This document shows positions 25,238 to 41,011 of a stretch of 64,000 nt of DNA, piece after piece. The notes below the pieces were generated by a model. It worked only from the letters and a program-made list of their open reading frames with translations, did not search any database and was not told the DNA's origin. The translations under genes and the position numbers were made by a program. Every line of letters begins with the position of its first letter. Positions within the stretch are counted from its first letter, which is position 1. The stretch covers positions 1 through 64,000 of the forward strand of contig JAPLGO010000023.1 in assembly GCA_026390115.1 (NCBI GenBank). The letters are read 5' to 3'. The stretch comes from Campylobacterales bacterium (lineage in GTDB: Bacteria > Campylobacterota > Campylobacteria > Campylobacterales > Sulfurimonadaceae).

Positions 25238-25666
25238 ATGTCAAAAAATTATAATGATTTAAGTACTGAAGGCTTAACCTTTTTAGAAGACGGCGAAGTT
25301 TTATATGATGATTTGTACCTATTATCAGAGACTGATGAAAAGGGGATTGTTGAGTATGCAAGTGACTCTTTTTTAAAGATTGCAGGAATGAAAGCCGATG
25401 AGATACTAGGTCAGCCGCATAATGTAGTTCGTCATCCGGAGATGCCGCGTGCAGCTTTTAGATCTTTATGGAAAGATGTTCAAAATAAAGGTTTTTGGAC
25501 AGGGTATGTAAAAAATGCTCGCAAAGGAGGAGGCTACTACTGGGTATATGCCACTGTGCTTCGTTCAGTTGATAAAAATGGAAAAACTAAGTATGTTTCT
25601 ATAAGAGTTAAACCTTCAAGAGAAGATGTTAAAAAAGCTCAAGAGCTTTATGCAACACTAGATTAA
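25238..25666 (+). CDS. stand-alone PAS sensor protein, CetB/Aer-like
   Basis: 142 residues, one PAS domain (about 25-130) with the Aer-type FAD-pocket signature: PHNVVRHPEMPRAAF, a Trp in SLWKDV, FWTGYVKN, and a YYWVYATV strand. It has no membrane anchor or signalling domain. Known CetB proteins pass redox signals to a separate receptor, CetA; here the next gene, 19 nt downstream, is a soluble MCP that is probably its partner. First gene of the chemosensory operon, with an AGGG ribosome site and a candidate -10 (TATTCT) at about 25203. Confidence 0.88.
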   Translation: MSKNYNDLSTEGLTFLEDGEVLYDDLYLLSETDEKGIVEYASDSFLKIAGMKADEILGQPHNVVRHPEMPRAAFRSLWKDVQNKGFWTGYVKNARKGGGYYWVYATVLRSVDKNGKTKYVSIRVKPSREDVKKAQELYATLD

Positions 25667-25685
25667 GAAATAAAAGGATTTTGTA

Positions 25686-27578
25686 ATGGCACTAATGAAA
25701 AGAACAACCTTAACTTCATCTCCTGAGTTAGCATCTTCAGCTGGCGGAGACAAAAGACGACAAAGAACACTGGCAAAGCAGCAACAAATAAGTGAGAGTA
25801 TCGCGGGTGTCGCCATGACTATACTAGAAAATGCACAAGAGAGTGTAAGCGCAATCGAAGAGCTAAAATCATCCATGGAGCAGATTGCAACCGCTGCTGA
25901 AGAGAATAGCGGTGCGAGTGAGCAGGCTCTAAACAATGTAAAAAGTATTAAATCAAATATTACCAGAATGAATTCAACTATCGATACAGTTATTGCATCT
26001 ACAATTGCAACCGGTGAAAATATTATGAACTCTGTTCAAAAAACCACTGAATCAGTTGCTAGAATGGATTCAGCAGTTTCAGTTGCACAAGAGTCCTCCA
26101 AAAAGAGTGAAGAGCTCAAAGAGTCATCACAAAATATTGGGAATGCTGTTGGTTTTATTGCAAAAATTGCAGACCAGACAAATTTATTGGCTCTCAATGC
26201 TGCGATAGAAGCAAGCCGTGCAAAAGAGCATGGCAAAGGTTTTGCAGTTGTAGCAGATGAGACCCGTGCCTTGGCCGGAGAAAGTGAAAAGAATGCTGAA
26301 TTTATCTCTGAACTTGTAAATAAAATACAGGGAAGCATAGACAATATTATTAAAAGTATTGGTTCTACAACAAGAATTATCTCAAGCAATGGCAAAAAAG
26401 GGAACACTCTTAGTCTGAAAATGGAAGAGCTCACAAAAATAGCTGTTTACTCTGTTGAGGCTGCAAGAAGCGTCAGCATATATACACAGAGACTTGGCGA
26501 TTTTATTGGAAAAATCAGCGACGGTTCGCAGGAGATAGCAAATGCATCTCAGGCAATTGCGCAATCCGTTGAAAAAACACTCCATGGCATTGATATTCAA
26601 TCCGATGCTCTTAGTCAAACAGAAGATGATATTAAAGAACTTTCAAACTTGGCTGAAGAGTTAAAATACTCGACAGACACCGTTAAATCAGCTGAAGATA
26701 TAGCACTCTCAGCAGATACCATCGGCGGTTCAATGGAAGATATTCAAAATGCATTAGAAAGTGTGACTGCTGCGTTAAATCAGATAGAATCATCCTCACA
26801 CTCAACAAACCAAAATGCACTTAACAACAAAGAACTTATTCAAGCCGGCATGGAAGCTGCAAAAGATATAGACAAACTTATAGAGATAGCGCGTCGTAAT
26901 TTTGATCTACTTAAAGTCTCATTCAATGTAGTAAAAAACAGTATTAGTGAGATTCGTGAAGCTTTTAATGAAGTAATTTTAGAAGGAAATAGTGCTGCTT
27001 CTGAGTTAAATGTAATAATAAAAGAGACAAAAAGTGTTGATAAAACAGTTGGAAATATCTCAAACTCTATTGTGCAGTTAAATATGCTTGCCATTAGTGG
27101 TTCGATTGAGGCAGCTCGTGCAGGTGACTTTGGAAAAGGTTTTGCAGTAGTAAGTTCCGACATAAGAAATTTAGCAAAGGATTCAGAGTCAAATACAGAA
27201 AAAATTAATGATATCGTAGAGTCAATGAACTCCGAAATTGATACGGTTAGAAGTGACTGGCACAATCTTTTAGGTTCACAATCAAACGAACAAGCCCTTA
27301 TAGATTCTTTAATCAATGATATTGGCAGAATTACAAATATGTTGGTTGATTTACTTGACAGATATACAGGATTAAAAACTGTAAATGACCAGAATATAGA
27401 GGGAATGAATCAAGTTATTATCGGTATTAATGAGATTCAAAAAGCGGTTGAACTGAGTGCTCGAAATGCTATGGAATCCCGTAAAGCAAGTGAATTGATT
27501 ATAGAAACTGTTACACATATCAGTGAGGGTGTAGAAGAGTTGGCTGTTATGGCAGATGAACTTCAACAAGGCAATTAA
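25686..27578 (+). CDS. soluble chemoreceptor with two MCP signalling tips
   Basis: 630 residues with no transmembrane segment, periplasmic domain or HAMP, almost entirely helical. The first signalling tip (about 155-205) is canonical (ADQTNLLALNAAIEASRA, GKGFAVVADETRALA). A second, diverged tip lies at about 455-500 (VQLNMLAISGSIEAARAG, GKGFAVVSSDIRNLA). No C-terminal CheR-docking pentapeptide is seen. With the PAS protein encoded upstream it probably forms a cytoplasmic two-part redox receptor. A duplicated signalling hairpin is unusual; the second tip could bind a different CheW. Confidence 0.88.
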   Translation: MALMKRTTLTSSPELASSAGGDKRRQRTLAKQQQISESIAGVAMTILENAQESVSAIEELKSSMEQIATAAEENSGASEQALNNVKSIKSNITRMNSTIDTVIASTIATGENIMNSVQKTTESVARMDSAVSVAQESSKKSEELKESSQNIGNAVGFIAKIADQTNLLALNAAIEASRAKEHGKGFAVVADETRALAGESEKNAEFISELVNKIQGSIDNIIKSIGSTTRIISSNGKKGNTLSLKMEELTKIAVYSVEAARSVSIYTQRLGDFIGKISDGSQEIANASQAIAQSVEKTLHGIDIQSDALSQTEDDIKELSNLAEELKYSTDTVKSAEDIALSADTIGGSMEDIQNALESVTAALNQIESSSHSTNQNALNNKELIQAGMEAAKDIDKLIEIARRNFDLLKVSFNVVKNSISEIREAFNEVILEGNSAASELNVIIKETKSVDKTVGNISNSIVQLNMLAISGSIEAARAGDFGKGFAVVSSDIRNLAKDSESNTEKINDIVESMNSEIDTVRSDWHNLLGSQSNEQALIDSLINDIGRITNMLVDLLDRYTGLKTVNDQNIEGMNQVIIGINEIQKAVELSARNAMESRKASELIIETVTHISEGVEELAVMADELQQGN

Positions 27579-27597
27579 TTGCTAAGGGTTGAGTGAA

Positions 27598-28953
27598 ATG
27601 AAAATAGAAGAGATCTTAATCATCAAAAACGGTAACGAGAGTTATGGTATATCGACGCATGATATTAACCAAATTTCTAGGGTGCCCATGCTGATGCCTC
27701 TTCCTCTAAGACCTTCCGGTGTTCGAGGTTTATGTGTTGTTAGCGGAAATATTGTATGTATGGTTGATATGAATCTTTTATTGGACATGAGCGAAGTCGA
27801 TTATGAGGCTGATAAAAGCAGACTTTTAAGTTTAAACGGCGTTTATTCATCAAATGCGATACTTGTGAGCGAAGTTTATAATACGGTAGAGATTGAACAA
27901 AATAATATTGAATATATAAACAAAGAGAATGATCCGATTATAGCTATTTATAAGTATAAGAAGTTGTTAGTTCAAATTATATCATTGAATATTCTGATTT
28001 CTAATATCTCAAGAGTCGTGATAGAATCAAAAGATATAAAAAATGGAAAAGTCAAGGTTAAACAAGCAAAAGAAGAAGATTCAAATAAATTTTTAATTTT
28101 TTCTTTGGAAAATGAAAAATTTGCATTAAATATAGAATATCTGAGAGAAATTGTTTTATCGGATATTCAAGTTACCGAGATTGCAGGAAGTGCCTCTGAT
28201 GTGCTTGGTCTTATAACTTTAAGAGAAGAACTTCTTCTTGTTGTTGATTTAAGAATATATTATGATTTTAAGACAAAAAATAGTTATAAAAACCGTATAC
28301 TAGTTGCATCTTGCGATGGTAAGAAGATAGGTCTTTTAGTTGATGAAATTATTGATATAAAAAGTTATTTATCCAAAGATATAGAGTATATGAGTGAAAA
28401 TTTTCAAAGCAATAAAATCTCCGGTGTAATCCATGACACAGACTCTCTGATATCATTTTTTGACAGAGATGTTTTAGAAAAACTTTTTGCCCAAAATGAA
28501 GCATATATTGATTCAAGCAGTTCAAATTTCAGTACCGTTAAAAGTCAAGATGAGATAAAAGAGGTAATTGTTTTTAAATTAGCCGGTAAAGAATATGCCT
28601 TTGATGTTGAGAGTGTTGCAGAAATTATAGATATAGTTGAATCTACTAAAGTTGCTTTTACAAGTGAACTCATAGACGGGATTATTAATATAAGAGGTCA
28701 GGTAATTACAATTGTTTCACTGTTTAAAAAATTAAATATTGAGCCAAAAATAAACCACGATTCTAAAATAATAATCTGCAATATAAAAAACACAAGAATC
28801 GGTTTTATAGTAGATAGTGTAAGTGATATTTTGAATATCAAAACGGACGAAATAAGAGAGCAGGACGATAAACTTTTTCCAGATATATTTCATCTAAATA
28901 ACGGCAAAAGATTAGTTTTATCTATCGATTTAAATGAAATATTTTCAAAATAA
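27598..28953 (+). CDS. triple CheW-domain scaffold protein
   Basis: About 451 residues made of three CheW-like domains: about 1-145 (the most diverged), 160-305, and 320-450, the last with the clearest features (ELIDGIINIRGQVITIVSL, IGFIVDSVSDIL). There is no receiver domain, so it is not CheV. CheW units link receptors to CheA; three in one chain could cross-link array rings. A TTG at 27589 is in frame but sits directly on the AAGGG ribosome site, so ATG 27598, nine bases after it, is preferred. Confidence 0.85.
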   Translation: MKIEEILIIKNGNESYGISTHDINQISRVPMLMPLPLRPSGVRGLCVVSGNIVCMVDMNLLLDMSEVDYEADKSRLLSLNGVYSSNAILVSEVYNTVEIEQNNIEYINKENDPIIAIYKYKKLLVQIISLNILISNISRVVIESKDIKNGKVKVKQAKEEDSNKFLIFSLENEKFALNIEYLREIVLSDIQVTEIAGSASDVLGLITLREELLLVVDLRIYYDFKTKNSYKNRILVASCDGKKIGLLVDEIIDIKSYLSKDIEYMSENFQSNKISGVIHDTDSLISFFDRDVLEKLFAQNEAYIDSSSSNFSTVKSQDEIKEVIVFKLAGKEYAFDVESVAEIIDIVESTKVAFTSELIDGIINIRGQVITIVSLFKKLNIEPKINHDSKIIICNIKNTRIGFIVDSVSDILNIKTDEIREQDDKLFPDIFHLNNGKRLVLSIDLNEIFSK

Positions 28954-28962
28954 GGATTCATC

Positions 28963-30027
28963 TTGGCTAAAAGAATACTGATAGTTGATGATTCTGCCCT
29001 AGTGCGAAAGCAACTGAGTGAGGTTATCGGGACATTGGGTTTTGATATTGAGACGGCTAGAAACGGGCAGGAAGGGGTAGAAAAAGCTACTTCAACTCAA
29101 TACGATGTAATTACAATGGATATTAACATGCCTGTTTTGAACGGCATAGAAGCTGTAAAGCAGATAATGAGCAGACAACCGACTCCTATTTTGATGATTA
29201 GTTCCCTCACTACTGAAGATGCAGCCATTACTATGGACGCTCTTGATGCAGGCGCAATTGACTATATAGCAAAACCAGGAACTATGAATATCGGTAAAGA
29301 GCAGAATACGGAAGATATTTTAGAAAAAGTGCTATCTCTTAGCCGTGTTTCACCTAGAAGATTAAGAAATAGAGCTTCAAGAGCACCAGTTGGAAGAGCA
29401 AGAGTTTCAGAGAATAAAGAGAAGCCGAAGCAGCCATTTAGTGAAATTACAGAAATTACAAAGATAGTTTTAATCGGCTCTTCAACCGGTGGACCGGGGT
29501 TAATTGAACAAATATGCGCATCATTGCCGACAAACTATAAATATCCGGTTTGTATAGTGCAACATATGCCTGAACAATTTACAAAAGCTTTTGCAGAGAG
29601 ATTAAACCGCTCAAGTGCTTTGAATGTCTTTGAAAGTGCCCATAATATGGAAATTCTACCGGGAAACATATATATTGCCCGTGGCGGAGTCCATATGAAT
29701 TTTGCTAAAAAAGTTTCGGGTAAAATAGTTATTAGAGAAGATACAAACAAAGGTAAGAACTTTTTTCAACCTAGCGTTAATGATATGATGTTTGGTGCTT
29801 TAGAGGTATTCGACGCATCAAATATTATAGGTGTTATCTTAACAGGTATCGGTGATGATGGTGCAGATGCTATGGTTAAACTGAAAAATTCCGGAGCTTA
29901 CACTTTGGGCGAGAGCGAAGAGAGTGCCACTGTTTATGGTATGCCGCGAGAGGCCTATGAGAGAGGCGGTGTCTCTCAGCAGTTAGACTTTAAACAAATT
30001 TTAAAAACTATTTCAACATTAAAGTAG
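28963..30027 (+). CDS. cheB: chemotaxis methylesterase with receiver domain
   Basis: 354 residues. Receiver at about 1-125 (Asp9-Asp10, phosphoacceptor Asp53) and the catalytic domain at about 160-350 with the Ser in IGSSTGGP, His in VQHMPEQFT and Asp in LTGIGDDGADA. It removes methyl groups, or deamidates, receptor glutamates. It uses a TTG start six bases after TAAGGA. Campylobacter and Helicobacter CheB, where present, lack the receiver, so this is the classical two-domain form. Confidence 0.96.
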   Translation: MAKRILIVDDSALVRKQLSEVIGTLGFDIETARNGQEGVEKATSTQYDVITMDINMPVLNGIEAVKQIMSRQPTPILMISSLTTEDAAITMDALDAGAIDYIAKPGTMNIGKEQNTEDILEKVLSLSRVSPRRLRNRASRAPVGRARVSENKEKPKQPFSEITEITKIVLIGSSTGGPGLIEQICASLPTNYKYPVCIVQHMPEQFTKAFAERLNRSSALNVFESAHNMEILPGNIYIARGGVHMNFAKKVSGKIVIREDTNKGKNFFQPSVNDMMFGALEVFDASNIIGVILTGIGDDGADAMVKLKNSGAYTLGESEESATVYGMPREAYERGGVSQQLDFKQILKTISTLK

Positions 30028-30038
30028 AGGAGAAGTAA

Positions 30039-30662
30039 ATGGCTTTAGTCAAAAAACATGTTGAGCAAGTAGTTGAAGAGTTGCCAAAGTTCTCAACACT
30101 TAAAGATGCTGTAAATTTTTTTGAATCAACAGATTCATTGGATGAAAAAGATTATGCCATTGAAGAGATTTCTAAATTTAAGGGTGGTGGAGAGTATTTG
30201 GTTGCATGCATAAGTAATGAGCAAATAGATAAATATATTTCAACCAAAGTAGCTAGTGTACTCTCAACAATGGAACCGAGTAAAGCTCCTATAGATGAGA
30301 TTATGAATCTGCTTAAACTGGATAATGCCTATGTAAGAAACCTAGGTATATCCATTCTTAGAAATTTTGGTAATGCTATAAAGTATTATATAGTTAAATT
30401 TTTGATAGGAGATGACAAGGATTTAAGAATTTTTGCTATCAATGTTTTAGGTGATGTGAATTTTTCCGAATCAAGAGACATGCTGGTTGAACTTTTAGAG
30501 ACAGAACAAGATATAAATGTAGCGATGACAGCGGTTGACTATTTGGCGGAGATAGGCGAAGTGAGAGATATCCCTCTTTTAGAATCTGTGAAAAAAAGAT
30601 TTGCCGGTGAATTTTACGCAGAATTTGCAGTCGACAGTGCCATTAAGTCGATAAGAGGGTAA
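30039..30662 (+). CDS. HEAT-like repeat protein of the chemosensory operon
   Basis: 207 residues, soluble, predicted to be helical repeats: segments such as NAYVRNLGISILRNFG, DKDLRIFAINVLGDV and INVAMTAVDYLAEIG have the spacing of HEAT repeats. There are no catalytic motifs. It starts after a GAGGAG site 11 nt after cheB and ends 2 nt before cheR, so it is likely a scaffold or adaptor in the same pathway. The specific partner is unknown. Confidence 0.75.
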   Translation: MALVKKHVEQVVEELPKFSTLKDAVNFFESTDSLDEKDYAIEEISKFKGGGEYLVACISNEQIDKYISTKVASVLSTMEPSKAPIDEIMNLLKLDNAYVRNLGISILRNFGNAIKYYIVKFLIGDDKDLRIFAINVLGDVNFSESRDMLVELLETEQDINVAMTAVDYLAEIGEVRDIPLLESVKKRFAGEFYAEFAVDSAIKSIRG

Positions 30663-30664
30663 AC

Positions 30665-31495
30665 ATGGCTTATCTGTTATCCAAAGAAAACTTTGCAAAA
30701 ATGAGTGAATTTATTTATAGAAAAAGTGGCATTTTTTTAGAAGAAGATAAGCACTTTGAAAAGTTAGCTAAGTATATTGATTCCCGCTGCGGGGCATTAA
30801 GCTTTGACAATTTTAGAAAATATTTCTTTAAACTTCGTTTTGAAGATAAAGATGGGGAAGAGTTTCAAGCCTTGATGAATGGGATTACCGTAAATGAAAC
30901 CTATTTTTTTAGAGAAAAAGATCAATTTGAGGTTTTGGTAAATACTATTTTGCCAGAGCTTCACAGGGCTATGCCAGCTTCGAAACCAATAAGAATATTG
31001 TCGTCTCCATGCTCAACTGGCGAAGAACCTTATTCTATTGTTCTTCATATAGTCGAAGAAGGTAAAGTAGTAGAGCAGAGAGATATAGAAGTTGTTGGCA
31101 TAGATATAGATTCAACTGTTATAAAAAAAGCACAAATTGCAAAATATAGCGACAGATCTATTCATGCGATACCTAAAAATATTTTATCCAAGTGGTTTAC
31201 GAAAAATACAATGGGATATGAGCTTTCAAAAGATTTGCAAGGCTCTGTTGACCTTCAAGTAGCGAATGTATTTGATAAGGCACAAATGAGAAAGCTTGGA
31301 AAATTTGATGTAATTTTTTCAAGAAATATGTTGATTTATTTTGATGATGCATCCCGTAAAGAGGTAGCTATGACCTTTTATGACATGTTAAATCCAGGTG
31401 GGTTTGTTCTTTTGGGACATGCCGAATATATGAGCCGTATTGTTTCTGTCTTTAAGGCACGAAAAATAGACAATACTTTAATTTATCAAAAATAG
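30665..31495 (+). CDS. cheR: chemotaxis protein methyltransferase
   Basis: 276 residues. N-terminal helical CheR domain (about 1-85, including NGITVNETYFFRE) and a SAM-binding domain with PCSTGEEPYSI (motif I), VVGIDID and the late FSRNMLIYFD. It methylates receptor glutamates with S-adenosylmethionine. Adjacent cheB provides the opposing reaction, so the soluble receptor is probably subject to adaptation even though no docking pentapeptide is visible at its end. Confidence 0.96.
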   Translation: MAYLLSKENFAKMSEFIYRKSGIFLEEDKHFEKLAKYIDSRCGALSFDNFRKYFFKLRFEDKDGEEFQALMNGITVNETYFFREKDQFEVLVNTILPELHRAMPASKPIRILSSPCSTGEEPYSIVLHIVEEGKVVEQRDIEVVGIDIDSTVIKKAQIAKYSDRSIHAIPKNILSKWFTKNTMGYELSKDLQGSVDLQVANVFDKAQMRKLGKFDVIFSRNMLIYFDDASRKEVAMTFYDMLNPGGFVLLGHAEYMSRIVSVFKARKIDNTLIYQK

Positions 31496-31505
31496 GAGAA
31501 ATAAA

Positions 31506-31880
31506 ATGCCATTAGTAATATTTGTAGATGATAGTGAAACAGCCTTAGCCTCAACGAGAATGGTTACAAATTCGATGCCCATAGAGGTAAAACAATATAC
31601 GGAAGCACAAAAAGCTTTAGCAGAAATCAAAGCAGGTATGACACCTGATTTGATAATTACGGATCTGAATATGCCGGTCATGAATGGTCTTGAATTTTTG
31701 CAGGCTTTACGAGCTCATCCATCCACGAGCAGAACACCATGTCTGATGCTTACAACAGAAACAAAAGCGGAGTTAAAAGAGCAGGGCAAAGCTTTGGGTC
31801 TTACAGGGTGGATTGTAAAACCATTTAATCCAGCCCAATTAAAGCAGGCAATAACAAGAGTTTTAAGACTGCCAGCTTAG
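31506..31880 (+). CDS. CheY-like single-domain response regulator (first copy)
   Basis: 124 residues, a receiver only. Asp8-Asp9, phosphoacceptor Asp53 (ITDLNMPVMNG), conserved Thr in LMLTTET and Lys in VKPFNP. Its stop codon overlaps the GTG start of the CheZ-like gene by one base, suggesting that this CheY is the one dephosphorylated by that product. Confidence 0.92.
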   Translation: MPLVIFVDDSETALASTRMVTNSMPIEVKQYTEAQKALAEIKAGMTPDLIITDLNMPVMNGLEFLQALRAHPSTSRTPCLMLTTETKAELKEQGKALGLTGWIVKPFNPAQLKQAITRVLRLPA

Positions 31881-32287
31881 TGGTTGATGAGATGCTTATT
31901 TTAAACTCAGTTGATGAACTTTTATCGCATATTAAAGATGTTCAAAAAGATGTAATTAGCCTATCAAATCAATCATTAATGATGATTAGCAGTTTTATAG
32001 AAAAAAACGCCCTTGAAATTGATAATGATGTAGCAACAGCTTTGCAATATCAGGATATTATATCTCAGCAGTTAAATGCTACAATAGAGGCAATTGATAG
32101 TGTGCAAAGTAGTATTTATCGATTTTCTCACGCACATCAAGCGGATGAAAATTTAGTTGTTGAGAGCATGAAAAAGTTGCAAGATAAGCTTGATGCAGCA
32201 CTAGCTCAAGCCAAAGATAAAAAGAGTAGATTTTCCGGTAAATCTGCGGATAATAATACAGATAGTGACGAAATAGAATTTTTTTAG
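31880..32287 (+). CDS. short CheZ-like phosphatase candidate
   Basis: 135 residues, helical. The segment ALQYQDIISQQL (Gln58-Asp59...Gln63) reproduces the CheZ catalytic pattern QDxxxQ, in which Asp and Gln three residues apart activate water for CheY-P hydrolysis. The acidic-aromatic tail (DSDEIEFF) resembles the C-terminal CheY-docking peptide of CheZ after a flexible linker. It is shorter than E. coli CheZ (214 aa) and I rely on the motif and position between two cheY genes. GTG 31880 is assumed; ATG 31892 is an alternative. Confidence 0.68.
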   Translation: MVDEMLILNSVDELLSHIKDVQKDVISLSNQSLMMISSFIEKNALEIDNDVATALQYQDIISQQLNATIEAIDSVQSSIYRFSHAHQADENLVVESMKKLQDKLDAALAQAKDKKSRFSGKSADNNTDSDEIEFF

Positions 32288-32296
32288 GAGAGTACG

Positions 32297-32662
32297 ATGG
32301 CAACAGTGATGGTTGTAGATGATTCAAAAACCGTAAGAAATTACCATGGCTCTATGCTAAAGTCTATGGGAATAGATGTATTGGAAGCTGAAAACGGCAT
32401 GGAAGCATTAGAAAAAAGTTTATCTTCAAATATTAATCTCTACTTGGTGGATGTCAACATGCCTGTCATGGATGGATACTCTTTTATTGAAGATTTAAGA
32501 AAACAAGAGAAGTATAAAACTGTACCGATTATTATGATAACAACACAGGCAAAAGAGGAAGATAAAATAAACGCTTATAAAGTGGGTGCAAATCTATTTG
32601 AAACAAAACCAATAAAGCCGGATAGGCTTCAGGCATATATAGAAATATTAGTAAAAAGCTAG
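32297..32662 (+). CDS. CheY-like single-domain response regulator (second copy)
   Basis: 121-residue receiver with Asp8-Asp9, phosphoacceptor Asp52 (YLVDVNMPVMDG), Thr in IMITTQ and Lys in ETKPIKP. It differs clearly from the first copy 0.8 kb upstream, so it is not a recent duplicate. It lies 8 nt before cheA. One copy may be the output and the other a phosphate sink; which is which cannot be told. Confidence 0.92.
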   Translation: MATVMVVDDSKTVRNYHGSMLKSMGIDVLEAENGMEALEKSLSSNINLYLVDVNMPVMDGYSFIEDLRKQEKYKTVPIIMITTQAKEEDKINAYKVGANLFETKPIKPDRLQAYIEILVKS

Positions 32663-32670
32663 GAGATATT

Positions 32671-35403
32671 ATGGATCCACTATTAGAACAGTTTTTACAA
32701 GAAGCTAGGGAAAATCTTGCGTTTATTGATCAGAATATAGAAGAGATTGGGGGAGATGACCCAGAACTTTTAAACTCTGTATTTCGTGCTGCTCACACTC
32801 TCAAAGGAGGAAGCGGGATTGTCGGTTTTGACTCTATCCGAGATATAACTCACCATGCAGAAGATTTGCTAGACATGTTAAGGTCTAAAAAAATTGAGTT
32901 TAAAGAGAGCATGACAGAGGCACTTTTTAACGCTTTTGATGAGGTTATGAATCTTGTCGAAGCGGCTGAAGAGAGCGGTGGAATTGTAGAAGCTGATTCA
33001 AGCGTAGTGGATGAGATTATCGAAGTGCTCAATGAGCAGATGAATAAAACAGCAGCAACACCCGCAGCGTGGAACGTTCCGTTTTTAGCAGTCGATGATG
33101 CACAAAAAATTATAAATCTTCCGTTACCGGCACTTGCATATGTGAACTCTCAAAAAGTTGCTTTTAAAAATAGTGAAATAAACCAAGATTTCTGCTTCTC
33201 TGAGAATTTATATGCAATTCTATTTGATGTAGATGAAGCATGTATGGTGTATGGAAATGACCCGATTTATGCACTCTCTCTTCTAGGAGATAAAGTAATT
33301 AGTGTTTACTCATGCATAAGCGACGAGAGTACCAAATCAATTTTAAGCGGCACAGAAGATGAAAACGGCTTACTCCTAAAATCATATATTCTAGCTTATG
33401 TATATGCTACTTATGAAGAGATTGAAAACTCTCTTTTTAATTTTATTGATGAACTTCAATTTTTACCGTTAGACATTGCAACACTTTTATCTCTAGATGT
33501 TAGGGAGAACGGCCATAAGTTAGACTCTTTAAAAGAGTTGTCTAAGATAACTAAAGAAGAGGATATGGATTTTATAACTCAAGAAGTTGAAAAATCCATG
33601 GAGTTAATCGGTACCAATACCCTCCAATATGCACAACTTCAAAGATTTTTAGAAATTGCCCCTTTAATCAAGGAGAGCGATATTCGTAAGCTAGAGGGTT
33701 TTTTTAGTAATCTTTACAGGGGCGAAGTGTATAAGTTTGATGAGGTCTTTGATACTTTAGAAATTGTACAAAAGTTTCAAGAAACTGAATCTGAAGCTTT
33801 GCAAGAAGAGAGCGTGGAAGTGAGTGAAAGCATAAAAGAGACGCTTACTGTCATGATGAAGCAGCAACATAAAGCGCTAGAGTGTGTGCAAAATGATAGC
33901 GATTTACAAAGAGTTCTATTTATCATGCAAAAAATAAAAAAATTTATGCCGCATATGCCGGAAAATTTAACCACTAAAGGCGAAATAGCAAGCTTTTTAG
34001 ACTCTAATCTTCATATAACTTCTCAAGTCATTAAAGAAATAAAACCATCAATATCAGAGAAAATTGTATCGCAAAAAGAGACTTCTCAGGTTGAAAAGAT
34101 TTTGCCAAAACAAGAGATTATTTTGGATGAAGTTCAAGAGGAAGCTCAAGAAGAGACAAGAGCACTCAGAACAAAAACACAGGATGAGAACAAAAAATCT
34201 ATTGTCGGTAAAACTGTTAAGATAGACCAAGAGTCAATCGATAGTTTGATGAATGTTGTGGGAGAGCTTTTGGTTGCAAAAAACTCTCTGCCGTACTTAG
34301 CTGATAATGTTGTTGGAATGACACATGATGTAATAAAACGAGAGATAATGGAGAAGTATATCTTTATAAACCGTTTGTCGGAGCAGTTGCAAGATTTGAT
34401 TATGGGCATGCGAATGCTTCCGATATCCTATGTGTTCGATAGATACCCTAAGCTGGTTCGTGATATAGCTAAAAAACTCGGTAAAAAAGTGAACTTGGAG
34501 ATGGAAGGCGGAGAAACTAAGCTCGATAAAAATATGATAGAGATGCTGGCTGATCCTATGATTCATATTATGAGAAATTCGCTCGACCATGGACTTGAAG
34601 CACCGGAAATCAGAGAGCAAAAAGGCAAAGATTCCAATGGATTGGTTACACTCAAAGCCTATGCCGAGTCGGATAGAATTATTATAGAGATTGTAGATGA
34701 TGGTGCGGGAATAAATATAGACAAAGTTGCAAATAAAGTTTTAGAAAAAGGTTTGATGACCTATGAACAGATAGATGCCCTTACAGCGGAAGAAAAAGCA
34801 GAATTGGTTCTTCTTCCAGGTCTTTCAACCGCAGAGACGATAACAGAGTTTAGCGGTCGCGGTGTCGGAATGGATGTAGTGAAAAAGTCTATAGAGGCTT
34901 TCGGCGGAACGATTAAAATTAAAACTAAAGCAAACCATGGAACAACTATTACTCTTGCAATTCCGGTCTCTTTAGCCGTCACCTCTCTTTTGCATATTCA
35001 GATGAATGATATACACTACGGCATTCCTATGGATAGCGTCTCTGAAACTGTAAAACTTGAAAAAGAGGAGATAGAGTATTTGCATAATGAGCCGTTTGTT
35101 TACATACGAGGAGAGGTAATCCCGTTACTTTTCATAAAATCTATGCTCAATGAAAAAGACATGGAGAAGGAACCTCTTTCTATAGTTGTTTTGAATATAA
35201 AAGAGAATCTTTTAGCAGTTGTTGTGAATAGATTCTTAGGTCAGTTGGATGTAGTTCAGAAGCCACTTGTAGGTATTATGGAGTCGCATCCGCTCTTCAG
35301 TGGAACGGCACTTCTTGGAAATGGTCAGATAATAATGGCAATTGACCCGATAGGTCTTCTGGGTATTTCTCAGAAATTAAAAGCGGATATAAAAGCAGCT
35401 TAG
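32671..35403 (+). CDS. cheA: chemotaxis histidine kinase CheA, enlarged, without receiver
   Basis: 910 residues against about 650 in E. coli. Hpt domain (1-105) with phospho-His42 in AAHTLKGG. Residues about 130-510 are an extended middle region including a GNDPIYALSLL segment, which resembles an accessory domain seen in other long CheA proteins (weak inference). Then come a dimerisation helix pair (about 510-575), HATPase (HIMRNSLDHGLE, DDGAGI, GRGVGMDVVKK) and a CheW-like P5 domain to the end. There is no C-terminal receiver, unlike the CheAY of Campylobacter and Helicobacter. Confidence 0.96.
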   Translation: MDPLLEQFLQEARENLAFIDQNIEEIGGDDPELLNSVFRAAHTLKGGSGIVGFDSIRDITHHAEDLLDMLRSKKIEFKESMTEALFNAFDEVMNLVEAAEESGGIVEADSSVVDEIIEVLNEQMNKTAATPAAWNVPFLAVDDAQKIINLPLPALAYVNSQKVAFKNSEINQDFCFSENLYAILFDVDEACMVYGNDPIYALSLLGDKVISVYSCISDESTKSILSGTEDENGLLLKSYILAYVYATYEEIENSLFNFIDELQFLPLDIATLLSLDVRENGHKLDSLKELSKITKEEDMDFITQEVEKSMELIGTNTLQYAQLQRFLEIAPLIKESDIRKLEGFFSNLYRGEVYKFDEVFDTLEIVQKFQETESEALQEESVEVSESIKETLTVMMKQQHKALECVQNDSDLQRVLFIMQKIKKFMPHMPENLTTKGEIASFLDSNLHITSQVIKEIKPSISEKIVSQKETSQVEKILPKQEIILDEVQEEAQEETRALRTKTQDENKKSIVGKTVKIDQESIDSLMNVVGELLVAKNSLPYLADNVVGMTHDVIKREIMEKYIFINRLSEQLQDLIMGMRMLPISYVFDRYPKLVRDIAKKLGKKVNLEMEGGETKLDKNMIEMLADPMIHIMRNSLDHGLEAPEIREQKGKDSNGLVTLKAYAESDRIIIEIVDDGAGINIDKVANKVLEKGLMTYEQIDALTAEEKAELVLLPGLSTAETITEFSGRGVGMDVVKKSIEAFGGTIKIKTKANHGTTITLAIPVSLAVTSLLHIQMNDIHYGIPMDSVSETVKLEKEEIEYLHNEPFVYIRGEVIPLLFIKSMLNEKDMEKEPLSIVVLNIKENLLAVVVNRFLGQLDVVQKPLVGIMESHPLFSGTALLGNGQIIMAIDPIGLLGISQKLKADIKAA

Positions 35404-35415
35404 CAAGGAAATTAC

Positions 35416-35685
35416 ATGGCAATAATATATGAAGAAAATTGTGCAACATTTACATCCATTATTTATGAAGATGAAGTGGTGTCTTTTAGAGATTTTTTGC
35501 AAAATATAGCTCCAAATGAGGTTCTTTGCAACTTCTCCGAGTGCGATGATATACACTTTGCAGTTTTACAACTTTTGATGGCCTACCAGAAGAGTTATGG
35601 CTGCAGATATGAATTTTCAGAGGATATAAAGCTTTTTGAGAAGGTCTTAAAAGGGTTTGATGCAAAAGAAGAGAATTGTGGCTAA
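35416..35685 (+). CDS. small STAS-like protein
   Basis: 89 residues. The C-terminal half (DDIHFAVLQLLMAYQKSYGC) resembles the core helix region of STAS domains (typically D.AGLQLLLAL.K), and the acidic single-domain size fits. The phosphorylatable Ser/Thr normally preceding this helix is not evident. STAS proteins in chemosensory operons are thought to act as adaptors. Recognition is by pattern only. Confidence 0.55.
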   Translation: MAIIYEENCATFTSIIYEDEVVSFRDFLQNIAPNEVLCNFSECDDIHFAVLQLLMAYQKSYGCRYEFSEDIKLFEKVLKGFDAKEENCG

Positions 35686-35707
35686 TAAAAAAGCAAAGGA
35701 TTTTTTT

Positions 35708-36472
35708 ATGATGGATTTCATAGTATTTAGTGTTGGAAATAATCATTATGCCTTGAATATTGAAAATATTCAAAGAATAATTCAAGCTAAGGAGTTAACA
35801 ACTATTCCCAACTCCAGTGAGCTGATTGATGGGATGATGAGCTATGAAGAAAAAGTTATAAAAATTCTTAATTTTCGCAAACTGATTGGGTTGATTTCTT
35901 ATGAGAAGGAGTTGCAAAAATCGTTTGCTATTTTTAAATTTTCTTGTCAAGAGTGGCTGAATGAACTTAGAGATTCTCTAGAAAATGGCTCAGTTTTTAC
36001 AAAAACTACAAATCCGCATAAGAGTGCACTTGGCATGTGGTTGGATAGTTTTAACTCCTATGATGACAGAGTTACAGCAATCTTAAAAGAGCTGATGCTA
36101 AGTCATAAACATATTCATGCTCTGGGCGGCGATGCTTTAGAATTGTATAAAACAGACAGAGACAGAGCTAAAAGCATGTTAAACAGAGAGATTAATGAAG
36201 CCTTTAAAAAAGTAACTACCTATTTAGATATTTTTATATCCGAGTTAGAGAGTGTTTCTAATTCCCTGCAAAAACTTATTATTTATGAAAAAAACGGTAT
36301 AACTTTTGCAATTAAAGTAGATACTATTGAAGATATAGCGCATATAGAAGAGTCAAAAATTATGAATAGCAATGAAGATTATAGAACAGGTGAATATTTA
36401 GAACTCTCAGGAATACTTGATATAGAAGGTGTTTTGATTAATGTCATTAAAAATATCGATATTCCAAAATAA
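35708..36472 (+). CDS. CheW protein with an inserted CZB zinc-binding domain
   Basis: About 254 residues. Residues about 1-75 form the first half of a CheW fold (FIVFSVGNNHYALNIENIQ; SELIDGMMSYEEKVIKILNF) and about 195-254 the second half (GITFAIKVDTIEDIA). Between them lies a CZB-like domain: CQEWLNELR, PHKSALGMWLDSF and LSHKHIHALG align with the HxxW, CxLGKW and HxxxH elements, but the first His is Cys and the usual Cys is Ser. The ATG at 35708 follows AAAGGA by seven bases and is preferred to an upstream start inside the STAS-like gene. Confidence 0.75.
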   Translation: MMDFIVFSVGNNHYALNIENIQRIIQAKELTTIPNSSELIDGMMSYEEKVIKILNFRKLIGLISYEKELQKSFAIFKFSCQEWLNELRDSLENGSVFTKTTNPHKSALGMWLDSFNSYDDRVTAILKELMLSHKHIHALGGDALELYKTDRDRAKSMLNREINEAFKKVTTYLDIFISELESVSNSLQKLIIYEKNGITFAIKVDTIEDIAHIEESKIMNSNEDYRTGEYLELSGILDIEGVLINVIKNIDIPK

Positions 36473-36487
36473 AAGGCTTTAAAAAAA

Positions 36488-37243
36488 GTGAAAACTATTG
36501 TAATCAGCAATCGTAAAGGCGGTTCTGCCAAAACTACTACGGCAGTGAATATTGCCAGTGGTTTAGCTGAGTTGGGCTCGGTTTTACTATTGGACTTTGA
36601 TACGCAAGGGCACGCTTCTATGGGTGTTGGCTGCGAACCAAACGAAGAACTTGGTGTTCACTCTATTTTTAGCGGAAAAACACTGAGTGAAACTTTTATT
36701 CCGACTATACACAAAAATCTAACTCTTTCACCTGCTCTTGCTTTTTTTGATGTTTATGAGTACTCTGATTTGCAAGGCGTGCTAAAAAGCCGTTTTAAAA
36801 GAGAAAATATTGCAGACTTTTTTGACTACTGTGTCATAGATACCCCACCAACATTTGATGCTTTGTTAAAAAACTCTTTAGAAGTGGCGGATAGCGTAGT
36901 TATTCCATTTGTTCCGCATCATCTTGGGGTTGTGGCAGTCGGGCAGATGCTTAGAGCGCTTTATCAGAGTGCTTCGCAGTTTAACCGAGATATAGCGGAT
37001 GTATCGATATTGCCTGTCATGTATAATCCGCATATTAATGAGCACAATGAGTGTCTGCAAAAAGTTAAAACCTCCTTCGGTGAGGATAAACTCCTCTCTC
37101 CGATAGGCCTTGATATTAAATTAGCAAAACAGTTTGAATCGGGCTCTCCTATTATTTTAGACACGAAACGCTCCAAAGGTTTAAAAGATTATAAACGATG
37201 TGTATCTGAACTAATAAACAGACTGCAGAAAAAAAGGGAATAG
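36488..37243 (+). CDS. ParA/MinD-family ATPase of the chemosensory operon
   Basis: 251 residues, GTG start. Deviant Walker A KGGSAKTTTA at about residues 10-19, Walker A' LLLDFDTQGHAS, and Walker B region VIDTPPT. There is no ParB partner and no plasmid context. In Vibrio (ParC) and Rhodobacter (PpfA), ParA-like ATPases encoded with che genes position chemosensory clusters; PpfA does so for cytoplasmic clusters, which matches the soluble receptor here. A role in array segregation is therefore a good inference. Confidence 0.85.
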   Translation: MKTIVISNRKGGSAKTTTAVNIASGLAELGSVLLLDFDTQGHASMGVGCEPNEELGVHSIFSGKTLSETFIPTIHKNLTLSPALAFFDVYEYSDLQGVLKSRFKRENIADFFDYCVIDTPPTFDALLKNSLEVADSVVIPFVPHHLGVVAVGQMLRALYQSASQFNRDIADVSILPVMYNPHINEHNECLQKVKTSFGEDKLLSPIGLDIKLAKQFESGSPIILDTKRSKGLKDYKRCVSELINRLQKKRE

Positions 37244-37246
37244 AAG

Positions 37247-38587
37247 ATGAATATACTTATAGTAGATGATAATAACAGCAATAGAATGATAATGAAATAT
37301 CTGTTGGAAGATTATGCAAAAAACAACTCAGGCATAATTTTTGGTATGCAGGAGGCACGTGATGGATTCGAAGCTCTGCAGATGTGTAAAGAGAACTCTT
37401 ACGATATAGTTTTTATGGATATTATGATGCCAAATATGGATGGTGTCGAAGCTACAAAACGTATAAGAGAGATAGATAAAAAAACTATGATTATTGCTGT
37501 ATCGGCTATGGATGATACAGAGAGCAAAAAGCTAATCTTAAATAACGGAGCAGAGGATTACATCTCTAAACCTATTATCGCCGATATGTTTATCAGTAGA
37601 ATGGATAACTATATCACCCTTGTTGAAAGTAGAAAAAGTAAAAAAAGTAATATTGAAAAAGTTAATCTTTTCTCCGATAAAATTTACAAAAGACATACAA
37701 AATTTATTATAAACTCTGAGGATTCTCTCTCAGAATTTTGGGAGTTTTTTCTTCTTAATGTTAGAAACAAAAGTGAGAATCTAAGTGATATAGTAAGAGC
37801 AATTGTTTCAATAGCAGATGTTCAACTCAGACTCTCTATTCACAGCGGGATATATATTGAAGAGTCGGATGAAGCACAATATTTTACATTAACAGACATT
37901 GATGCAATACCTTTAACACAGATAGAACTTATTATAAAGAAAAATAATCTTATAAGTCGATATCTCATAGAAGATGGAAAAATTTCATTCGAGTTGAAGA
38001 AAAATGCTGTTGAAAATGATGCTGGTTTGCCTTCTGCGGAAATACAAAATGCGCATGCAATTATTCAAAAAGAAGAAAAAACAATACCGGCAGAGAAGAT
38101 AGCTTCGCCTCTTGTTCTGAAAAAATCTGAAAATTTACAAATATTTAACTATATGGAAGAAGAAGATTTATATGATTTAGAGGAGTATGCAGGTAAGTTG
38201 AATTCTCTGTTGTTAGTTGTGGGCAATGGAGATGTAAGTGAAGAGGAGATAGCAGATATATACACATATCTGGATAAAATAGCCGGAATATTAGCAGTTT
38301 ATAGTGAAGTTTATGTTATCTCTAAGGCTCTCACAGAATTATCCTATGCTATGTCAACCCATATATCTGAGTTTATTAAAAATTCAGAAGCCCTTGGACC
38401 GATGTGCAAGGCATTTAGCAACGATATCTCCAACTGGATAGAGATGTCATTTCACACAGGCGCACCAAGTGTGCAGTTTATGAATGATACAATTGTTGTA
38501 AATTGCCAAACAATCAGCGGTATGTTAAAAATGGATGAAGTGCCTGCTGATGGCGGCGAAGACTTTGATGATATTTTTGATTTTTAG
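37247..38587 (+). CDS. response regulator with unrecognised helical output domain
   Basis: 446 residues, 3 nt after the ParA gene. An intact receiver at about 1-125 has Asp7-Asp8, phosphoacceptor Asp58 (FMDIMMPNMDG) and Lys in ISKPII. A variable linker follows, then an all-helical region (about 295-430) that I do not recognise. That region shares a pattern with the end of the protein encoded at 58234-59277: small residues, NW/SW, Phe, then a D-rich segment. The final DDIFDF resembles the CheZ-like tail in this operon. Probably an output or modulator of the pathway. Confidence 0.78.
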   Translation: MNILIVDDNNSNRMIMKYLLEDYAKNNSGIIFGMQEARDGFEALQMCKENSYDIVFMDIMMPNMDGVEATKRIREIDKKTMIIAVSAMDDTESKKLILNNGAEDYISKPIIADMFISRMDNYITLVESRKSKKSNIEKVNLFSDKIYKRHTKFIINSEDSLSEFWEFFLLNVRNKSENLSDIVRAIVSIADVQLRLSIHSGIYIEESDEAQYFTLTDIDAIPLTQIELIIKKNNLISRYLIEDGKISFELKKNAVENDAGLPSAEIQNAHAIIQKEEKTIPAEKIASPLVLKKSENLQIFNYMEEEDLYDLEEYAGKLNSLLLVVGNGDVSEEEIADIYTYLDKIAGILAVYSEVYVISKALTELSYAMSTHISEFIKNSEALGPMCKAFSNDISNWIEMSFHTGAPSVQFMNDTIVVNCQTISGMLKMDEVPADGGEDFDDIFDF

Positions 38588-38595
38588 GAGATAGT

Positions 38596-38802
38596 GTGTA
38601 TAAGATAAAAGTACAGAATCCATGCAACTGTTTTTTTAAAAGTGGACTTTCTGAGGCTTTAGAATTTGATACGAAAGAGGAAGCAAAAAAAGAGGCTGAG
38701 TCCATGATAAAAATAATGAAATCAAACTTTTGTCAAAAACATGTGTTTGATTTAAATGAGCAGTTCGGTGATTTTACAATTTTTATAAAGCCAAGAAGCT
38801 AA
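38596..38802 (+). CDS. small Cys-containing conserved-type protein
   Basis: 68 residues, GTG start five bases after GGAG and 8 nt after the response regulator gene, so it is co-transcribed. CNC near residue 10 and CQKH near residue 46 could bind a metal. I recall similar small proteins from Campylobacterota but do not know a function. Last gene of the chemosensory operon. Confidence 0.6.
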   Translation: MYKIKVQNPCNCFFKSGLSEALEFDTKEEAKKEAESMIKIMKSNFCQKHVFDLNEQFGDFTIFIKPRS

Positions 38803-38860: not shown

Positions 38861-39253
38861 ATGAAAATAGCTATACCGGTAAAAGATGAGAATTTAACAT
38901 TTTTTTCCAACGCAGGGCATACTCCAAAATTTGCTATATTTACTATGACCGGAACAGGAATGTTTAAGTCGTTTAAGTTAGAGAGTATAAAAAACAATCC
39001 AAGAACAAACTTAGACCATGACCATGCAGAAGAAGAGCATCAATGTGACCATCATGCGGATGATGCAGAGCATATAGACCAACACAACAAAATGGGAGAA
39101 GCACTTGAGGGTTGTAACTATATTGTTGTTAAAAAAGCGTGTAAAAACACTGCAAATGCTTTCACCTCTTGCGGAGTGAAAATTTTAAAGTACAGAGGCG
39201 AATCTTTAAAAGCAGAAAGTATTTTAAGAGAGGTGTCTTCACTTTTTTTATAG
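38861..39253 (+). CDS. NifX/NafY-type (dinitrogenase iron-molybdenum cofactor) domain protein with His-rich insert
   Basis: 130 residues. The N-terminal MKIAIPVKDENLTFFSNAGH and the later cysteine-containing YIVVKKACKNTANAF fit the RNase H-like fold of this family. A His/Asp/Glu-rich insert at about residues 50-75 (DHDHAEEEH, CDHHADD, EHIDQH) looks like a metal-binding loop. Family members handle Fe-S or Mo cofactors, but no nif gene is nearby, so a metal-homeostasis role is as likely. Single-gene unit. Confidence 0.75.
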   Translation: MKIAIPVKDENLTFFSNAGHTPKFAIFTMTGTGMFKSFKLESIKNNPRTNLDHDHAEEEHQCDHHADDAEHIDQHNKMGEALEGCNYIVVKKACKNTANAFTSCGVKILKYRGESLKAESILREVSSLFL

Positions 39254-39274: not shown

Positions 39275-41011
39275 CTAAAAACTAATTTTATTTCGTCCGT
39301 TATTTTTTGAAATATAGAGTAAGTTATCTACTCTTTTAAATATTTCATTTATATTTTCAGTAGGTTCAATCTCAACAATGCCCATGCTTATTGTGACTTT
39401 ACCTACTGTTTCAAAAGAGTATTCTTCAACTTTTTTTCTTAATCTTTCGGCATACTCTTTCGCATTTGTAAGCATTGTATTTGGTAATAGAATCAAAAAC
39501 TCCTCTCCACCATATCGTCCGATAATATCTACCTGTCGTAAATTGTTCTTAACTACATTTGAGAGTGTAGCTAAGACATTGTCGCCTACATCATGTCCAT
39601 AAGTATCATTAACATTCTTGAAAAAATCAATGTCATACATTATTATTGACAAGGAAGTTTTGTATCTATTGGAACGGCTTATCTCGGATAAAAGAATCTT
39701 CATAATAGAATAACGATTGTTTATATGTGTGAGAGCATCCGTTGTAGCCAATTTTTCAAAATCATCTTTTATTTTATTAAGCTCAGCTGTTCGCTCCACT
39801 ACTTTTTGTTCTAATGATTGATTGAGCTCTCCTAGTTGGGTGGTTTTATCATTTATCTTATCGTTATATTTAGAAAAACTATTTTTGACCATTTTAGATA
39901 CAAAAAACGAGAAAAGCAGTGACAACACAATAAGAAATATAGCGATATAAAATATATATTGGGATTTTAAATTATATGTTTCATACATAGTAATTTTTTG
40001 TTTCATTACCTTGTTTTCAATATCTGAGAGATAAAATCCACTCCCTATAATCCAATCACTGTGAGGAATTTTTTGGATATAGGAGTATTTTTTATTCATT
40101 ACATTTGTTTCGTTATTGAACCAATCATATATAGTAGTGGTTTTACCTTTGTCTTTGAGCGCGTCAATTATATTGTGCACAGTGTCGGTTACTAGCTTAT
40201 TTGAGATGTTCCTATCTTCACCGACAAATTGAGGCAAATGTTTATGAACAAGAAGATTGCCTTTAGTATTGAGTAAAAACATATAATTTTGAGCAGTGCT
40301 ATCTACTGTATCAATTAGAGAGTAGAGCTCTTTGTCCATTTTTTTAATTGCTGTATCCAAATACTCTCCGGAACCCAAATACCAGTTATAGCGCCCAAAG
40401 GCTTTTACAAAGGCAATTTGTTCATATTGTTTCTTCTTGTCTTCATTTGGTTTCGTAAAAGTATCCTATAAAAAGCCTTCCCCTTTTTCTTTACAAATAG
40501 CAATCTCTTCTTGAATAATATATTTGCCGTTAGCATCTTGAAAGTTTATTATTGAAGTTCCCTCTAAGTTCTTTAAGTAATTTGGAGCTAAGACAAAGAC
40601 ACCGTTATAATCAATTATCCATATAAAACTTTCACCATCATTCCAAACAAAAGCTTTGAGTGTGGTATTTATGATTTTTTTAATCTCTGTTTCTGATTTT
40701 GTATCTTTATATTCATTATAAATATTTTCGGCGATGGTGTAGGCTGTTTCAACTCTGTTTTTAACACGAGAAGTGAGTTCATCTTTAATTTCTGATTTTT
40801 TATGAATAATAATGTCGGTTAGATTGAGAACTTTATCTTCAACAGCTTTTTTTTCACTGTTTAATAAATCTTTTTCCAAATTCTTAATGCTGGATTCAAA
40901 ACTTTGCAGATAAATTTGGTAAGACAAAACACTTACCAAAAAAAAGAAAATCGGAATAATAACTAATGGGGCATAAGTAATGATATTTAGGAAAGTTTTT
41001 TCTTTAAGCAT
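39275..41011 (-). pseudogene. diguanylate cyclase (TM-Cache-TM-GGDEF) interrupted by an in-frame amber codon
   Basis: Two open segments, 40466-41011 and 39275-40378, are in the same frame, and the 29 codons between them also read through as sensible protein, so one TAG (40466-40468, codon 182) is the only interruption in a 578-codon gene. It encodes an N-terminal membrane span (about 13-35), tandem Cache-like segments (WNDGESFIWIIDYNG; then SDWIIGSGFYLSDI), a second span near residue 355, and an intact GGDEF domain with GRYGGEEF. A TATAAT box (minus strand, 41047-41052) and AAGG site are intact. Either a recent nonsense mutation, a sequencing error, or read-through. Confidence 0.85.

Follow-up and report, generated by a model that had tools for sequence, protein, structure and literature searches.

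Chemosensory systems of class F9 are marked, according to section 8 of PMC9321776, by the receptor DosM and a triple CheW protein. In Vibrio cholerae, the F9 array is pictured as receptors sandwiched between two CheA/CheW baseplates (PMC7534058, PMC3964821), and deletion of the F9 cheA is described as giving no detectable phenotype under standard conditions (PMC7534058). F9 is also in print for free-living Campylobacterota, with the class sets F3/F7/F8/F9/F14 and F3/F7/F9 in two species (PMC9239204), of which Sulfurimonas gotlandica is probably one. Here we describe a 64,000-nucleotide stretch (the window; contig JAPLGO010000023.1 of assembly GCA_026390115.1) from a Campylobacterales bacterium of the Sulfurimonadaceae, whose genome comprises 2.64 Mb in 39 contigs. 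The che operon at positions 25238-38802 belongs to F9, an assignment that its sequence signatures make secure, and probably encodes a cytoplasmic, membrane-free array. Its accessory set, typical of Sulfurimonas and Sulfuricurvum, suggests something new: an Aer-type PAS protein, a CheW into which a CZB is inserted, a CheZ-type protein and RRx, our name for a response regulator whose C-terminal region is undescribed.

Open reading frame (ORF) calling places 15 genes in this operon, one fewer than an earlier note on the window had counted; all lie on the plus strand, starting 208 bp after rpsO, and gaps of −1 to 22 bp bear out the tight spacing reported there (Table 1). Over the operon products, Pfam recovers PAS, MCPsignal, triple CheW, CheB with a receiver, HEAT, CheR, two receivers and CheA and, in the 3′ part, CheW with CZB, a ParA-type ATPase and a receiver whose C-terminal part falls outside any family; the CheZ-type and 68-aa proteins match no family above the cut-off. 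The products named in the earlier note are thereby confirmed, with three adjustments: the CheW-CZB gene starts at about 35708 rather than 35657, 'STAS-like' is a weak call by Pfam (5 of 14 family members match STAS_2, the best at E 0.0052), and the 'CheZ-like' protein has the motif but no Pfam CheZ match.

DosM carries its GKGF signalling tips at residues 183 and 483, and the resulting 300-residue spacing also occurs in all 6 double-tip ORFs from a check of six other-phylum loci. A new chemosensory class was considered and rejected because DosM and triple CheW, the F9 signatures, are both present; nor is it a system unlike anything known, the class having been reported in free-living Campylobacterota already. 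The usual limit for a membrane span is a 19-residue hydropathy of 1.6. DosM has no span-like stretch, its best 19-residue Kyte-Doolittle mean being 0.95, while single windows reach that limit in CheW3 (1.77), CheA (1.66) and CheB (1.60), all of them soluble-domain proteins. The earlier claim that the operon has no membrane receptor stands, and the cytoplasmic array it proposed is probable. Among DosM matches, only MCPsignal exceeded the Pfam cut-off; neither a sensory domain nor HAMP was matched. 'Self-contained', a further claim, is doubtful because no sensory domain is found in DosM and 23 more MCP-domain matches lie elsewhere in the genome. All 33 distinct orthologue sequences counted share the DosM C-terminus MADELQQG(N), which is perhaps a docking site.

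The CheA consists of Hpt, dimerisation, ATPase and CheW domains, the receiver being found on CheB, as the earlier note had stated; the predicted CheA structure is of low confidence (pLDDT 65). None of the F3 hallmarks, namely a CheA with receiver, a cheV-A-W order and a CheB without receiver, is seen in the operon. In a tree of 24 CheAs over 592 columns, which took in 6 of 28 Campylobacterota CheAs and left out L012 as a copy of L020, the window CheA falls within a clade of 15 F9 CheAs (support 99/98) that includes Gammaproteobacteria and Desulfobacterota, the F9 labels going by DosM/CheW3 in the same locus and not by class hidden Markov models (HMMs). Its closest relative outside the phylum is from Piscirickettsiaceae (100/100). 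The genome's own F3-type CheA on contig C22 (L015), from a cluster with a receiver match in CheA, a CheV-like gene and CheW, lies outside the clade, which agrees with the proposed origin apart from the Campylobacter/Helicobacter (F3) pathway. The CheAs on C8 (L016) and C14 (L018) also fall outside, on long branches that meet and whose placement is unsure.

How widespread is the system? A CheW3 profile search gave matches in 9 of 397 Campylobacterota genomes (2 of 68 genera) and, within the genus, in 44 of 120 genomes, including 25 of 72 near-complete ones. Scanning GTDB contigs with the profile gave 39 loci, their titles mostly Sulfurimonas or Sulfuricurvum. Outside the phylum, matches came from 5 of 369 Gammaproteobacteria, among them the query's own Piscirickettsiaceae genome, and at a looser limit from 36 of 198 Desulfobacterota genomes, many being matches to single CheWs. 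A search with CheW3 as a single sequence hit 4 of 298 genomes, one through a one-domain match, and a CheW3 search of plasmids gave 112 records, of which 4 had at least 80% query coverage, all below 60% identity.

The gene set is no chance grouping: it is found again in 36 further distinct Campylobacterota loci, a recurrence in relatives that the earlier note had named as a check. Our counts refer to these loci (duplicates removed, not chosen by the genes counted), and genes split in single contigs are counted as present: CheB and RRx in L033, DosM and RRx in L035, CheA in L045, PAS in L055. Of the 32 loci that reach far enough, 31 have the PAS gene upstream of DosM at a distance of at most 120 bp; in L048 it is present, though not within 120 bp as called. 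STAS, CheW(-CZB) and ParA occur in all 27 loci with 2.1 kb of sequence after CheA. Between CheR and CheA, CheY2 is found in 29/29, CheY1 in 28 and the CheZ-type gene in 27; where 1.7 kb follows ParA, RRx is present in 13/16 and the 68-aa protein in 10/16. The median intergenic gap is 9 bp (387 gaps). The STAS gene comes before CheW-CZB in the window and in L041 and L043, in other loci mostly after it, and gene order is rearranged in L038 and L042. L038 (821-12387) runs from HEAT to ParA and then PAS-DosM-CheW3-CheB, with neither CheZ-type protein nor RRx, and L042 agrees with this order up to the ends of its contig; upstream of HEAT, L038 encodes a protein of at least 263 aa with an EIEFF end.

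To look beyond the phylum, HMMs from Campylobacterota proteins were run on 14 triple-CheW stretches of other phyla plus L056 and L058, and 8 loci in the CheA clade showing CheB and CheR (L082-L085, L087-L090) served as reference. Gene order there is DosM-CheW3-CheB-HEAT-CheR-CheY2-CheA-STAS-CheY1. A HEAT gene sits between CheB and CheR in all eight, and a short STAS-like ORF beside CheA in six (19-28 bits; Gammaproteobacteria/Desulfobacterota); in L088 the STAS-like match lies inside a longer open frame, and the HMM run on L087 gave none. Because they hold the same positions in F9 loci of other phyla, the HEAT and STAS-like proteins are, judged by this gene order, core components of F9; the idea that they are oddities of the window was rejected on the same ground. 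In 7 of the 8 loci an extra MCP gene stands beside CheY1, the contig of L083 ending before that point. C43, H47 and Q52 are invariant in 14 rows of the STAS-like family, whose profile had no PDB match up to E 1. Among open-licence papers, we found none linking HEAT or STAS proteins to F9. In Halobacterium salinarum, flagellar switching requires a HEAT_PBS protein of the che region that interacts with Che proteins (PMC2666748), and by analogy the F9 HEAT protein may offer a lead to the output. ParA is not exclusive to the Sulfurimonas/Sulfuricurvum lineage, as ParA-like genes are also found in the vicinity of some loci of other phyla (L089, L092, L093).

Between the CheY genes, the operon encodes a small protein in which Q52, Q54, D55 and Q59 (counted from the ATG at 31892) and a terminal EFF are invariant in 18/18 aligned members. 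The Asp and Gln of the QDxxxQ motif are the catalytic residues of CheZ. The genome's F3-CheZ, beside a U32 peptidase gene as described in the literature, has the same QYQDIxxQ core; the two align by hhalign at E 4e-4 over 25 columns (probability 35%). CheZ was not among the 25 of 73 Pfam families listed for 18 CheZ-type members, and F3-CheZ itself reaches only 19.5 bits against Pfam CheZ (cut-off 30.7). RRx ends on DDIFDF in all 15 aligned rows (predicted structure pLDDT 74). Its C-terminal part gave only chance-level Pfam matches and a single phmmer match in PDB (E 0.041); the Foldseek/VIA lists were filled by receiver domains and therefore say nothing on it. Among 65 window ORFs of at least 100 aa, only the CheZ-type protein and RRx have acidic-aromatic tails, which occur in 68 of 1770 distinct ORFs from all loci, loci that had been chosen for che genes; nearly all of the 68 are in che clusters, with a few spurious antisense frames.

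The two genes also come and go together. Across 26 distinct loci spanning DosM to ParA, 23 have both, 3 (L029, L038, L042) have neither and none has one alone. L029 has also lost CheY1: between CheR and CheY2 a scar about 170 bp long holds remnants of CheY1 and of the C-terminal end of the CheZ-type gene, the remainder of the cluster being intact except for RRx. In its genome (G1021, recognised by its CheW3 coordinates; 88% complete), searches for RRx at E 1e-10 and for the CheZ-type protein at 1e-6 both came back empty, and the genome of L038 (G926), which keeps CheY1, matched neither. Elsewhere, CheZ-type and RRx genes stand side by side in three further che clusters, those of G948 and of the near-identical pair G200 and G1055. 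Over the 120 genus genomes, CheW3 occurs with the CheZ-type protein in 38 and with RRx in 39 (Fisher p 2e-21 to 1e-23), descriptive values only, as related and partly incomplete genomes are counted as independent; the RRx cut of E 1e-60 dropped ten weaker matches. Because of this joint presence and absence and the adjacency in other che clusters, we read CheY1 as a putative sink, the CheZ-type protein as its phosphatase and RRx as a partner, together one candidate unit.

RRx-like genes were also seen at L132:3348-4649 (−), L133:816-1922 (−), L135:7921-9231, L136:2157-3206, L137:3272-4549 and L056:3308-3754 (−), the last by eye comprising the C-terminal part only; several are in or near other che clusters. 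Their tails read DDIFDF, NLEFF, DLMFF, FELF and DDFMF, and their C-parts, which match no Pfam family, are possibly an undescribed signalling domain. On C22 (L131:6068-6972), a receiver-less RRx-like gene appears as two ORFs between genes of EAL-type and dnaX-like aspect (both by eye), and G1020 (L134) has an uninterrupted 302-aa version in a similar neighbourhood.

What might the array control? Section 9 of PMC9321776 names W58, K91, K119 and Y106 as the FliM-binding residues of CheY. In E. coli numbering, placed by motif in alignments of 31 rows each, CheY1 and CheY2 both retain D57, T87 and K109. CheY1 has W106 and A119 in 31/31 and L or M at position 58; CheY2 has V58, F106 and Y119 across its orthologues, with one gap at 119. 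At position 91, CheY1 has K or R, and 19/31 CheY2 rows have K. Because neither protein has W58, Y106 or K119, a flagellar output appears unlikely, and the output is probably other than the flagellar switch protein FliM, in line with the earlier suggestion of a non-flagellar system.

On the input side, we propose sensing through separate soluble proteins because DosM lacks a sensory domain. The best solved match of the PAS protein is the PAS domain of the aerotaxis receptor Aer (8dik, E 4.5e-29), and VRH..MPR.AF..LW and KGFW.G.VKN are invariant in 32 aligned orthologues. Separate PAS proteins working beside a receptor have precedents in CetA/CetB (PMC2628428) and CetA2/CetB2 (PMC12442639), and by this analogy the PAS protein may gate DosM; it is present in place of the second receptor gene of other F9 loci, an arrangement that looks new. 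Orthologues of the extra CheW come in two forms, one of about 254 aa with a CZB inside the CheW fold and one of about 143 aa that lacks it, and several Sulfuricurvum loci hold two copies. Among CZB proteins, CheW-CZB is an already described minor type (1.4%; PMC8262984). Across 18 CZB-bearing rows, the zinc ligands read H,C,H,H in 14 and the Cys is kept in 17. In L058 and L092-L094, the triple CheW proteins measure about 610-650 aa, and, as read from the sequence, L058 has a CZB-like stretch inside its second CheW domain; grafting of CZB into CheW may thus recur.

From the class signatures, the gene set, the CheZ motif and the finding that CheZ-type protein and RRx occur or are missing together, all legible in the DNA, we infer array formation, a redox signal, phosphoflow, tail docking and a role for ParA. 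The resulting mechanism, which we consider fairly probable, is a soluble two-layer F9 array with PAS and CZB input, CheY2 output, decay through CheY1, CheZ-type protein and RRx, and placement by ParA. DosM would span two CheA/CheW3 baseplates with no membrane anchor. The signal would enter through the Aer-type PAS protein as FAD redox or respiratory state, with a second input at the CZB of the extra CheW in relatives with intact ligands. CheA would phosphorylate two targets, CheY2 as the retained regulator of output and CheY1 as a side regulator or sink; the CheZ-type protein, working with RRx, would dephosphorylate CheY1, and the C-terminal tails of the CheZ-type protein and RRx would dock onto CheY-type surfaces. 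CheB and CheR would adapt the array, and ParA would position it and share it at division, for which PpfA provides a precedent with a cytoplasmic array (PMC3964821). This is a proposal, of which one sub-module (CheY1/CheZ-type/RRx) has the support of natural deletions. A bolder version, which we put forward tentatively, is an F9 variant with sensing moved off the receptor and a scaffold gated by a flavin PAS and an adaptor-grafted sensor; the decay module would be detachable and insulated from F3 by a private tail code (EIEFF, DDIFDF), and the RRx C-part would be a new domain family shared by several che systems.

Several observations weigh against the two-layer mechanism. Array, binding and phosphotransfer are deduced here from sequence, and the F9 CheA clade leaves out 3 of the 18 rows labelled F9, namely L092-L094, whose loci carry DosM and a CheW3 with CZB. 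For the input, the receptor of CetB has HAMP and membrane spans, whereas DosM has only MCPsignal by Pfam; and the CZB ligands of the window read C,S,H,H against H,C,H,H, two of four being lost, which makes zinc or HOCl sensing doubtful in this strain. For the output, K91 of the FliM-binding set is retained in the window CheYs. As to decay, Pfam CheZ is absent from the 8 families that the window CheZ-type protein matches up to E 1, and the stretch matching the motif is short; joint loss including CheY1 is seen in one metagenome-assembled genome (L029), while L038 and L042, the latter on a contig cut at both ends, retain CheY1 without the CheZ-type protein or RRx. At genus level the tie is looser: among the 44 genomes with CheW3, 3 carry the CheZ-type protein but no strong RRx match and 4 show the opposite, some genomes being incomplete.

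An ordinary F9 system, receiving its signals from cytoplasmic MCPs encoded elsewhere and using the PAS and CheW-CZB proteins as minor modulators, would suit the 23 MCP-domain matches and the pairing of DosM with another receptor in V. cholerae (PMC7534058). We regard it as possible though rather unlikely, given that the PAS gene adjoins DosM in nearly every locus, even in the rearranged L038 and L042, and that no second receptor gene is seen in the Campylobacterota clusters listed. The output could also be cross-talk with swimming, with the CheZ-type and RRx tails binding the motor-driving F3 CheY, or HEAT linking to the motor, so that switching is biased under starvation or low oxygen. F3-CheZ ends, MTQEELDALMNG and STDDIEALLAQFGQ, do resemble DEIEFF/DDIFDF, and there is a likeness to E. 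coli FliM and CheZ peptides. The genome encodes FliM, and the Halobacterium HEAT_PBS protein is needed for flagellar switching (PMC2666748). However, the CheZ-type and RRx tails are unlike those of F3, a difference that would suit insulation equally well, and the putative HEAT link draws on a description of the archaeal protein; we deem such cross-talk improbable. That the operon is a divergent F3 branch or a chance neighbourhood might be suspected from the F3-type cluster in the same genome (C22). Yet the architecture of CheA, CheB, DosM and CheW3 and the CheA tree contradict the former, and with the neighbourhood from PAS to ParA retained in 26 distinct loci, we give this explanation next to no credence.

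Table 1. Genes of the F9 operon, positions in the window.
Feature	Position	Strand	Evidence
Aer/CetB-type free-standing PAS protein, 142 aa; proposed FAD redox input	25238..25666	+	Pfam PAS_3 2e-13
DosM, soluble receptor with two signalling tips	25686..27578	+	MCPsignal 9e-50, 3 stretches
CheW3, three tandem CheW domains	27589..28953	+	PF01584, 3 stretches, E 6e-61
CheB, receiver + methylesterase	28963..30027	+	Pfam
HEAT-repeat protein, F9 core component	30039..30662	+	HEAT_2 6.6e-12
CheR	30665..31495	+	Pfam
CheY1 (L58, W106, A119), proposed sink	31506..31880	+	PF00072 5e-23
CheZ-type phosphatase (proposed), QYQDIxxQ motif, C-terminal EIEFF	31880..32287	+	31-row family alignment
CheY2 (V58, F106, Y119), proposed output regulator	32297..32662	+	PF00072 1e-27
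CheA, 910 aa, no receiver, ~420-residue Hpt-to-dimerisation-domain stretch	32671..35403	+	Pfam, tree
STAS-like small protein, F9 core component	35416..35685	+	STAS_2 E 0.035 (weak)
CheW domain interrupted by inserted CZB, 254 aa	35708..36472	+	CheW 1e-16; CZB 6e-6, below CZB cut-off
ParA/MipZ-like ATPase	36488..37243	+	AAA_31 2e-29, MipZ 7e-9
RRx, receiver + undescribed C-terminal region + invariant DDIFDF tail	37247..38587	+	PF00072 3e-25
68-aa protein, CxCF and FCxKH-type motifs	38596..38802	+	18-row family; no Pfam family above cut-off

Directly 3′ of the operon, 38861-39250 encodes a small protein with a His-rich stretch and a weak Nitro_FeMo-Co match (E 0.003, below cut-off). Just downstream, a dCache-GGDEF diguanylate cyclase gene on the minus strand (39275-41011) appears as two ORFs with Pfam dCache_2 divided between them and is probably interrupted. 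The genome's further CheA clusters are the F3-type one on C22 and two others, on C8 and C14. C14 also encodes a 285-aa protein (L018:3103-3957) with a stretch, LQCEDRITQ, that by eye resembles the CheZ motif, and an EEFLLF end. A weak CheW domain (42.9 bits) lies at C18:256421-256831 (−) in an ORF of 871-888 aa; within 12 kb, the only other label is a weak receiver match.

F9 arrays are so far known by their structure rather than their function, and this gene set could make them a pathway open to study. It offers a candidate flavin PAS input and a candidate CheZ-type phosphatase with a likely substrate and partner, while the uncharacterised core proteins HEAT and STAS-like, kept across phyla, provide further handles.

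How, then, does the locus compare with described systems? The F3 pathway of Campylobacter and Helicobacter belongs to the same phylum, and the CheZ-type motif is common to the window and the genome's F3-CheZ; the window differs from F3 in a CheA without and a CheB with receiver, in the missing cheV-A-W order and in a CheA from another clade. RRx resembles ChePep, which we take to carry a receiver, in kind only, by description and not by alignment. In Helicobacter pylori, CheZ is paired with ChePep, a Campylobacterota-only partner described as important for its localisation and function (PMC11237671), and RRx, likewise a receiver protein paired with a putative CheZ, would be comparable to it in role. 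With CetA/CetB, the window shares an Aer-type PAS made as a separate protein and adjoining the receptor gene, but its receptor is soluble and double-tipped and has no HAMP match. CheOp3 of Rhodobacter sphaeroides (TlpT, PpfA) combines a cytoplasmic array with a cluster-encoded ParA (PMC3964821), a combination likely in the window too, which has one complete CheA instead of CheA3/CheA4 and DosM in place of TlpT. Nearer still by class, and from the same phylum, the partial F9 clusters of Nitratiruptor and Nautilia share DosM and CheW3 but, as given in section 8 of PMC9321776, are without CheA and CheY, both of which the window cluster has. Cluster I of V. cholerae (DosM VC1403, CheW3 VC1402, CheA VC1397) shares the double-tip DosM and the triple CheW (PMC7534058) and also has two CheYs, CheA, CheR and CheB in one cluster (PMC11940527). 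Set against it by description only, the window lacks a second receptor gene and adds the Aer-type PAS protein, the CheZ-type protein, CheW-CZB, ParA, RRx and the 68-aa protein.

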